A stretch of 64,000 bases of DNA, taken from the NCBI RefSeq assembly GCF_023074835.1, contig NZ_JALLGW010000001.1:62001-126000 (forward strand). The letters run 5' to 3'. Each line of letters opens with the position of its first letter. The first letter of the stretch is position 1. Below the pieces are notes generated by a model that was not told where the DNA came from, ran no database searches, and saw nothing but the letters and a program-made list of their open reading frames with translations. Both the position numbers and the translations under genes were made by a program. Source of the DNA: Halomarina salina (GTDB lineage Archaea > Halobacteriota > Halobacteria > Halobacteriales > Haloarculaceae). Positions 43,609-60,508 of the stretch are shown here, in pieces.

Positions 43609-43894
43609 GACGACCGGCCGACGAGCAGGCGACGCACCGCGGGGGAAACGTGACCGTGCGTCGCGCTCCGTGGGACCGGTGCCACGGGCGAGGGGGACTC
43701 CCTCCGGGCGGTCACGCCGCATCCGTCAGAACACGACGACGCTGGCCGCGTCCCGGTACTTGAACCTGCGGAGCGGGGCGGAGTCGGTAGGTCCGTGTGT
43801 TGCACCGCGAGCGAGTGAGCGAAGCGAGTGAGTGAGCGGGCCAAGGAACCCTCGAAAGAGCGAGCGAAGCGAGTGACTGAGGGGGTGACGCAGG
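43609..43894. other. Non-coding part of the gap before engB
   Basis: Between the lipoprotein stop and element D there is no convincing gene. Positions 43800-43880 are a run of imperfect copies of GAGTGAGCGAAGCGAGTGA, a texture shared with other gaps of this window. A minus-strand frame ending at 43726 carries RRFKYRDAASVVVF before its stop; it might be the remnant of a gene tail, but nothing upstream supports it. An A/T-poor region with no promoter I can identify. Confidence 0.5.
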
Positions 43895-44039
43895 TTTTTT
43901 GGTCCCATTGTGAGACGCGGAGCGTCTCACAGGCTCCCAGAAGCTTCGCTTGCTGGGAGAGCTTTTGCCAGCGAGCCGAACGCGACCGCTGAGCGCCAGC
44001 GAAGCGTGTCGCGTTCATGCGAGCGCAGCAAAAGGTGGT
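43895..44039 (-). repeat. 3'-end hairpin element, family 2, copy D (after engB)
   Basis: Read on the minus strand it begins one base after the engB TAA: CCACCTTTTGC, an inner stem GAACGCGAC/GTCGCGTTC, then GCAAAAGCT; next come hairpins CTCCCAG/CTGGGAG (43934-43959) and a perfect 10-bp stem TGTGAGACGC/GCGTCTCACA (43909-43931); it ends GGGACCAAAAAA. CTTTTGC and GCAAAAG pair across the first part. Copy E at 60229 has the same order of boxes after another gene's stop, with fewer hairpins. Confidence 0.8.
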
Positions 44040-44657
44040 TTAGAAGAACTTGAACAGGTCGTCCCGGCCGGCGTCGTGGAGGTGGGTTCGGACCGCTTCG
44101 GTCAGCGGTTCGATAGAACCGCGTTTCGCGGTGATGGGAGCGACCGTGTCCTGCCACTGCTTCCACGGGGGGAGCAGGCCGAGACGGTCGCAGACGTCGT
44201 CGAGACGGTCGTCGCGGTCGTCGACCTTGTCCATCTTGTTCACCGCGACGACCGCCGGGATGCCGAGGTCCTCGAACAGGTAGAACAGTTCGACGACGTG
44301 GGGCACCTCGTCGGGGCCGGAGTGGCGGTCGATGATGTCGACGACGCTCTTCCCGTCCACGACGACGACGCCGACGAGTATCTGGTCGGCGTACTCCTCG
44401 ATGTAGCGGACGATGTCGGTCTTGATGGCCTCGCGGTGGTCGGCCTCGACGCCCTCCATGAACCCGAAGCCGGGGAGGTCGGTCAGCACGAAGTCCTCCG
44501 AGGACCAGTCGTAGTGGTTCGGCGATCGAGTCACGCCGGGCTTGCCGCCCGTCGAGAACTGCTTGCCGGTGAGTTCGCGCATCAGCGTCGACTTCCCGAC
44601 GTTCGAGCGCCCCACCAGCACCACCTCTGCGCCCCGGTCGGGGCGACTGTCGAACAT
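44040..44657 (-). CDS. engB: GTP-binding protein EngB (YihA)
   Basis: 205 residues. G1 [16 protein letters not shown] (about 17-32), switch region [10 protein letters not shown]3 DLPGFGF, G4 NKMDKVDD and a late SAKR-like PITAKRGS (G5). Length and order fit the EngB family of ribosome-assembly GTPases, which haloarchaea possess. The C-terminal helix ends LFKFF. The stop is followed at once by element D. The gene diverges from the phosphate transporter. No start doubt: [18 protein letters not shown]. Confidence 0.94.
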
Positions 44658-59703: not shown

Positions 59704-60225
59704 ATGCACGTTGACATCGTGCCGGTCGGTGACGTCCCCGCCGTCGTCAAGCGCGAGGCGTCGTCCGGGCTCCGGTCGGTCTACGAATGCGATGTCACCG
59801 TCCACGCCGCTCAGCCGATTCCGGACGGGTCGTACGACCCCAACCGCGGGCAGTACCGTGCCGAGGAGTTCATCGAACTGGCCGGACGAGTGGGTGACGG
59901 GGACAAGAACATCGCCATCACGCCGAACGACCTGTTCTACCGACGGCGCAACTACGTCTTCGGCCTGGCGTACCTCGACGGCGCGGGCAGCGTCATCTCC
60001 ACGTACCGCCTCCAGACCTCCTCCGACGGCGGGTTCGCCCAGAAGTCCGCGGGCGAGGTGTTCTCCGACCGCGTTCGCAAGGAGGTCGTCCACGAGATCG
60101 GCCACACGCTCGGCCTGGAGCACTGCGACAACAAACGCTGCGTGATGAACTTCTCGCCGACCGTCCGCGAGGTCGACATGAAAGAGCAGAACCTCTGTGG
60201 CACCTGCTCGCGGCTCGTGCATTGA
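59704..60225 (+). CDS. amzA: Archaemetzincin-family zinc protease
   Basis: 173 residues. The metzincin consensus HEIGHTLGLEHCDNKRCVMNF has three His zinc ligands and the Met-turn; the archaemetzincin-specific second zinc site is formed by the Cys in HCDNKRC and the terminal CGTC pair. The N-terminal half holds VYECDVTVHAAQPIP and the YRAEEFIEL helix. Cytosolic, substrate unknown. The stop at 60225 is followed 4 nt later by repeat element E. Confidence 0.94.
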   Translation: MHVDIVPVGDVPAVVKREASSGLRSVYECDVTVHAAQPIPDGSYDPNRGQYRAEEFIELAGRVGDGDKNIAITPNDLFYRRRNYVFGLAYLDGAGSVISTYRLQTSSDGGFAQKSAGEVFSDRVRKEVVHEIGHTLGLEHCDNKRCVMNFSPTVREVDMKEQNLCGTCSRLVH

Positions 60226-60228
60226 GCA

Positions 60229-60305
60229 CCCACCTTTTATCCACGAGAGGGGGTTTCACTCGCTACGCTCGTTCAACCCCCACAGGGTAAAAGCTGGACC
60301 AAAAG
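60229..60305 (+). repeat. 3'-end hairpin element, family 2, copy E (after archaemetzincin)
   Basis: It starts 4 nt after the stop: CCACCTTTTATCC, then GGGGGTT and AACCCCC as an 7-bp stem around a TTCACTCGCTACGCTCGTTC-type loop, GGGTAAAAGCT closing on CTTTTATCC, and GGACCAAAAG. The order of boxes is that of copy D. The next 145 bp (60306-60450) are GC-rich alternating palindromic sequence (CTTCGCGCTCTTCGAGCGC etc.) with no gene I can see. Confidence 0.8.
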
Positions 60306-60508
60306 GATTCCTCCCTCACTTCGCGCTCTTCGAGCGCTCCGGAAGACTCGCTTCGCTCGCCTTCCGTGCTCCCGCTCGTTTCACTCGCGGGAACTCCGTT
60401 CGGTCGTCACCCCGCTCGCTCGTTCGCTGACGCTCACTCACTCGCGGTACAGCATCGTCGTCAGACAGCATCGCCACGTGACCGCACAGCACTACAACCC
60501 TGCAACCG

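Follow-up and report, generated by a model that had tools for sequence, protein, structure and literature searches.

We found that two intergenic hairpin clusters, copies D and E, in a 64,000-nucleotide stretch of the Halomarina salina genome (the window) are members of a dispersed family of haloarchaeal hairpin elements that, as far as could be found, has no earlier description in the literature searched. In more than half of the copies, the left end of the element lies flush, in the sense orientation, with a stop codon or a tRNA 3' end, and the element is kept at the same core genes across several families. From sequence and placement, we tentatively read D and E as copies of a class-wide haloarchaeal element that would mark where transcription units end, most of all at the 3' ends of genes.

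The initial annotation had described D and E as a two-copy element with three constant boxes placed right after stop codons. All of the boxes are present. On the minus strand, D has CCACCTTTT at 44038-44030, AAAAGCT at 43966-43960 and GGACCAAAA at 43905-43897; on the plus strand, E has them at 60230-60238, 60289-60295 and 60296-60304. The reported distances of 1 and 4 nt to the upstream genes, both in the sense orientation, agree with the stop codons: a single base separates the D box from the engB stop TAA (44042-44040), and four bases separate the E box from the archaemetzincin stop TGA (60223-60225). The archaemetzincin gene, a name taken from that annotation, also has the element 4 nt past its stop in G002 (L051) and G006 (L310). 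Relatives of the engB gene occur in H. oriensis (92%) and H. rubra (90%).

The proposed pairing of CTTTT with AAAAG was likewise found, and it extends into a longer helix, CCA.CTTTT(A/GC) / (T/GC)AAAAG.TGG, with a C.C mismatch. By RNA folding, E forms one interior hairpin (z -2.5), and D has two extra hairpins at the mismatch (z -5.8), consistent with the three in D and one in E previously counted. As the outer CCA/TGG pairs still close the junction in D, the C.C mismatch is a site where modules get added; an insert like that of D is also present in copy L011. The family model scored E at an E-value of 8e-9 and D at 0.005, and the weak score of D is attributable to its disruption by the insert. 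The interval 43895-44039 originally assigned to D contains the boxes, but it is too short, since the repeat reaches about 43802 in D and about 60450 in E (Table 1). The left edge of D was placed 1 nt past the engB stop and the right edge by comparison with other copies.

Table 1. Coordinates of copies D and E, their parts and the genes they follow in the window
Feature	Position	Strand	Remarks
Copy D, whole element	43802..44038	-	P1 stem closed by a type-1 hairpin, the two hairpins of the insert, A tract, then tail hairpins as far as CTCGCGGTGC
D 5' arm of P1 (CCA C CTTTT)	44030..44038	-	
D 3' arm of P1, inner part (AAAAGCT, pairing with CTTTT)	43960..43966	-	
D insert, two extra hairpins at the mismatch position, between inner and outer P1 parts	43908..43959	-	
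D outer 3' arm (TGG, closes with CCA), then GACCAAAA tract	43897..43907	-	
engB-like GTPase gene, end 1 nt before D	44040..44657	-	Orthologues compared
Copy E, whole element	60230..60450	+	P1 closed by a type-2 hairpin, then A tract and tail as far as CTCGCGGTAC
E core (P1, hairpin, ACCAAAAG)	60230..60305	+	Covariance-model match, 55.8 bits, E=8e-9
E 3' arm AAAAGCTGG and ACCAAAA tract	60289..60304	+	
Archaemetzincin gene, end 4 nt before E	59704..60225	+	ATG start taken by eye

D and E are related, but rather than being a pair they are two of about 20 copies in the genome. In that genome CCACCTTTT occurs at 14 sites as against 7 for the reversed control, in excess of chance, and 11 of the 14 are full elements, mostly 0-8 nt past a stop codon. 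A covariance model built from eight intact copies (R1) retrieved 20 copies at an E-value of about 0.03 or better from the window's Halomarina genome and up to 73 copies at an E-value of 1 or better from other Halomarina genomes. The order-wide search used a diverse model (R2), with the best 128 candidates per genome scored. Of the 39 genomes of the order searched, with 11 families sampled, 33 had copies, and the maximum was at least 44 copies per genome. Natrinema, Halomarina and Halobacterium are among the genera with copies, several of which can be cultivated. None of the 97 genomes in a phylum sample outside the order had the element at an E-value of 1e-4, and it was not found at Haloferacaceae engB loci. 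Rfam gave no match at or near the gathering score for the whole window, or for copy E at E-values up to 1. In the mainly open-access literature searched, no paper had the box sequence, and no account of haloarchaeal intergenic palindromes or structured RNAs included this family.

Placement was analyzed in 189 top-scoring copies, which are not a random sample and include a few duplicates (e.g. L070 and L308). Gene context came from our own codon-score gene caller, trained on the fetched stretches, rather than from curated annotation. As the initial annotation had suggested, covariance-model matches in the host and related haloarchaea were recorded by strand and distance to stop codons. A sense gene lies upstream in 133 of the 189 copies; in 97, the stem starts -1 to 5 nt past the stop of that gene, with TTTT no more than about 10 nt from that stop. 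To the right of the modelled core, by contrast, a convergent stop at -1 to 5 nt was found in 0 of 189. Six copies are flush, in the sense orientation, with tRNA 3' ends (Leu L219, Val L267 and L276, Pro L253, Met L300 and Thr L211), and one (L231) lies about 10 nt past SRP RNA. Neighbor pairs are convergent in 76, tandem in 92 and divergent in 19 of the 189. The 97 sense stops, the tRNA and SRP RNA ends and the recurrence of the same genes in different families support placement at 3' ends. The refuting condition set in the initial annotation, further copies random in strand and distance or boxes at chance frequency, did not hold. The original proposal, a 3'-end function or a mobile element inserting at 3' ends, is partly supported, but "3' end only" is too narrow, because a second class of 26 copies abuts a divergent promoter. 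They precede a divergent start codon by 30-62 nt (by 40-50 nt in most), which places them against the core promoter, and 10 of the 26 have no annotated 3' end on either side.

At four loci (L233, L254, L265 and L208), a tRNA gene is separated from the element by about 90 bp that include GATTCGAATCAGGGAACG...GTGACCG and, after it, a duplicate of the tRNA 3' end. This segment is apparently another tRNA-end repeat family.

Stop-adjacent copies recur at particular genes. Their upstream genes are orthologous in 37 of 4415 cross-family pairs, compared with about 1.5 expected on our assumption that copies fall at random among 3000 genes, and their downstream genes in 4 of 4231. At engB, the element is present in 32 of 76 genomes (7 doubtful ones left out) and is clustered on the engB tree, with 17 changes as against 25.7 in shuffles (0 of 500). 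Turnover there is high, with at least 17 gains or losses; among close species, the engB site has a type 1 hairpin in G000 and G004 and a type 2 hairpin in G006, and it is empty in G002 and G007. TFS has the element in 11 of 30 cases, spread over at least six families, as against 0 of 30 for a control gene picked regardless of its own 3' end. From reading the proteins, we take the element-bearing genes to encode TFS, engB, PAN, RadA, thermosome, eIF1A, L10e, the A-ATPase D subunit, CarS, geranylgeranyl reductase and the PolD small subunit, among others. In three family-f10 genomes where TFS is without the element (L379, L385 and L390), a plain GGACTTTTTA tract occurs at about the same distance past the stop. 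The Halomarina A-type ATPase operon is flanked at both ends (L033, L057, L317 and L045, L064), by copies that, with the genes named by eye, we take to lie before the subunit H promoter and after subunit D.

This gene-specific association favors a 3'-end function, whereas a mobile repeat leaves traces such as direct repeats of neighboring gene 3' ends, tandem arrays, a patchy pattern of gains and losses, and letters specific to lineages. A REP-like or MITE-like repeat could by itself account for the family if the hairpin were recognized in an insertion process, single-strand or fork-associated, that favors gene ends, the shared positions then being hot sites or products of interspecies recombination rather than signs of function. 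We regard this as somewhat unlikely. It gains from 26 of the 189 copies, in which the stretch to the left of the stem repeats, in direct orientation, sequence found to its right (score of at least 20; best null 18). These repeats vary from about 20 to about 150 bp, nearly always correspond to the 3' end of the neighboring gene across the element, and mostly end 0-9 nt before the stem; in two cases, the same genes carry them in different families (L067/L215/L282 and L220/L272/L304). Tandem arrays (L086 and L091), the turnover and swapped hairpin types at engB, lineage-specific stem letters, and Watson-Crick-only swaps with near-perfect palindromes point the same way. However, stop-adjacent copies have no target duplication, no constant target letters were found left of the stem, the orientation at stops is strongly single, and retention at engB and TFS exceeds that at the control gene. 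The RAYT or IS200/IS605-type transposase domain PF01797 also had 0 matches in the Halomarina genomes G001 (73 copies) and G006 (19-28 copies). Mobility remains a rival on account of the 26 copies flanked by duplicated neighbor-gene 3' ends and the 26 at divergent promoters.

Within 1.5 kb around Y1_Tnp loci, element motifs were absent at 13 of 15, with two loose matches only. Parentage by IS200/IS605 seems unlikely, given the absence of the transposase from two copy-bearing Halomarina genomes and of target letters.

Some copies lie antisense, with an intact gene 3' end on one side and an incomplete duplicate of it on the other (L067, L215, L282; L220, L272, L304; L078, L085; L080, L094). The genes concerned, in different genera, are those for a radical SAM protein, an M29-like aminopeptidase, a 6-phosphogluconate dehydrogenase-like protein and Spt5. 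At L304, the C termini encoded by the two ends differ, as though one of the ends derived from a different lineage. In six Natrialbaceae plasmids (L328-L333), which were set aside from the analysis, the element is part of a longer conserved unit with (A)CTAYAGATGC.AAC to its left and GTGAGTGCACACTTCTCCGCCTGTACT to its right. Each plasmid has one such unit, which does not abut annotated genes, and the surrounding genes are unrelated between plasmids. This unit looks like one plasmid-specific locus and is perhaps a plasmid-specific RNA or maintenance site.

The core of the element is one stem, P1, of the form NNA-C-N-TTTT-R / Y-AAAA-N-C-TNN, with an invariant TTTT/AAAA block. Positions 1-3 read CCA, CGA, GGA, CAA and so on, position 4 is usually a C.C mismatch and position 5 is variable; TTTT at 6-9 pairs with AAAA, position 10 is usually R.Y, and a hairpin of exchangeable type follows, of which two kinds occur among copies of the window's Halomarina genome. 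Downstream of P1 come A-Y-N-AAAA and a tail that has one or two hairpins and ends in CGCTCGCGG. Among 52 distinct sequences, P1 is paired in 96% of cells, compared with 86% in shuffles, and has 40 double changes, compared with 10. The covariation score in the diverse set, 0.344 versus 0.091, is biased upward because that set was chosen partly by this architecture. In 185 copies, pair 1 is CG in 160 and GC in 15, pair 2 is CG in 110 and GC in 69, and pair 10 is GC in 97, AT in 39 and TA in 38. Swaps are almost all Watson-Crick, G.U being nearly absent at these three pairs and scarce at pair 5 as well.

P1 bears on whether the transcript includes the hairpin as a 3'-UTR structure, which would stabilize the mRNA end, set a 3' processing site or bind a protein at the UUUU/AAAA stem, with its C.C mismatch and the A tract that follows. 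Covariation of P1, the sense orientation at stops, and the optional hairpins inserted at the mismatch with both half-helices kept are consistent with such a structure, as is the excess of U.G over A.C at pairs 11 and 12 (G.T 25 and 74 versus A.C 3 and 1 in the 185 copies). But G.U is scarce at pairs 1, 2, 5 and 10, copies abut promoters or lie right at tRNA ends, and the sense strand folds no better than the antisense strand, which folds slightly better. Comparing G.U with A.C in the hairpin stems likewise revealed no sense-strand excess. The almost exclusively Watson-Crick swaps and slightly better antisense fold do not favor a purely sense-RNA structure, and we consider the 3'-UTR explanation unlikely. 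Chance resemblance between two intergenic hairpin clusters, conceivable because haloarchaea are rich in G+C-rich intergenic palindromes and single boxes within the window are near chance frequency when one mismatch is allowed, has a negligible probability and is ruled out by the genome-wide family, the excess over the reversed box, the order-wide occurrence, the score of E and the outgroup control.

Known systems resemble the element in part. Like REP elements of E. coli and relatives, it is a short imperfect palindrome dispersed in extragenic space, with stem mismatches and often just past stop codons (PMC12306157); REP elements less than 16 nt from a stop affect translation (PMC12306157). 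It differs in having one orientation at stops, a TTTT/AAAA core and the same genes across families, in being archaeal, and in having no need for a RAYT-type transposase, no cognate Y1 transposase being found by PF01797 in G001 or G006. Nor does the foot of the stem have a tetranucleotide of the GTAG or GGAG type, as the letters left of the stem vary. PATEs and IS605-derived repeats of Haloquadratum (PMC3119063) are also transposase-free haloarchaeal repeats with near-terminal palindromes and variable interiors. The present element, however, has no conserved 4-6 bp target at its left end, appears not to be tied to IS605 ends and lies flush with gene ends. SMR-A of Haloquadratum (PMC3119063) is similar in its length of about 110 bp, its tens of copies and its unknown mobilization; unlike the present element, it is highly uniform, has terminal inverted repeats and inserts into other mobile elements. 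The terminal inverted repeats and short fixed-length target duplications of canonical MITEs are not found here, where duplications range from about 20 to about 150 bp.

We suggest that the element probably marks or forms transcript ends. As a compact end-of-unit signal, it would combine T tracts on both strands with a hairpin. The T tract of the 5' arm, 5-10 nt past the stop, would end or pause the sense transcript in the manner of haloarchaeal T-stretch terminators, and the two A tracts would act as two T tracts for transcripts arriving from the opposite side, consistent with the many convergent and tandem sites. The hairpins might slow the polymerase, or shape and protect the RNA end. The element would have spread through genomes as a repeat, with copies at useful places retained, so that a terminator-type and a mobile-repeat reading may both be true. 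A terminator T tract needs no covarying stem, and a plain one leaves that of P1 unexplained; the T tract of the element precedes the hairpin, unlike that of bacterial intrinsic terminators; and the copies at divergent promoters and the 26 inside direct repeats also argue against a terminator. T-stretch termination in Haloferax volcanii occurs at intergenic sites and reached 95% in a reporter (PMC7237163). Like these terminators, which are T tracts of 4-5 or more residues, the element places a T tract a short way downstream of genes. They need no structure, however, whereas the T tract of the element forms one arm of a covarying stem and is followed by a hairpin and A tracts.

A bolder proposal, which we consider quite doubtful, is a haloarchaeal 3'-end code in which a dedicated factor would recognize stem, mismatch and A tract at the ends of genes. 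Such a factor would have co-evolved with the lineage-specific stem letters and would set the RNA 3' ends of shared core genes (engB, TFS, PAN, RadA, eIF1A, L10e, A-ATPase, tRNAs and SRP RNA). Archaeal RNA 3'-end signals are mostly thought of as bare T tracts. A class-wide structured element with a covarying stem at the ends of the same core genes would provide a new handle on haloarchaeal transcript ends, or on a gene-end-targeting repeat family.
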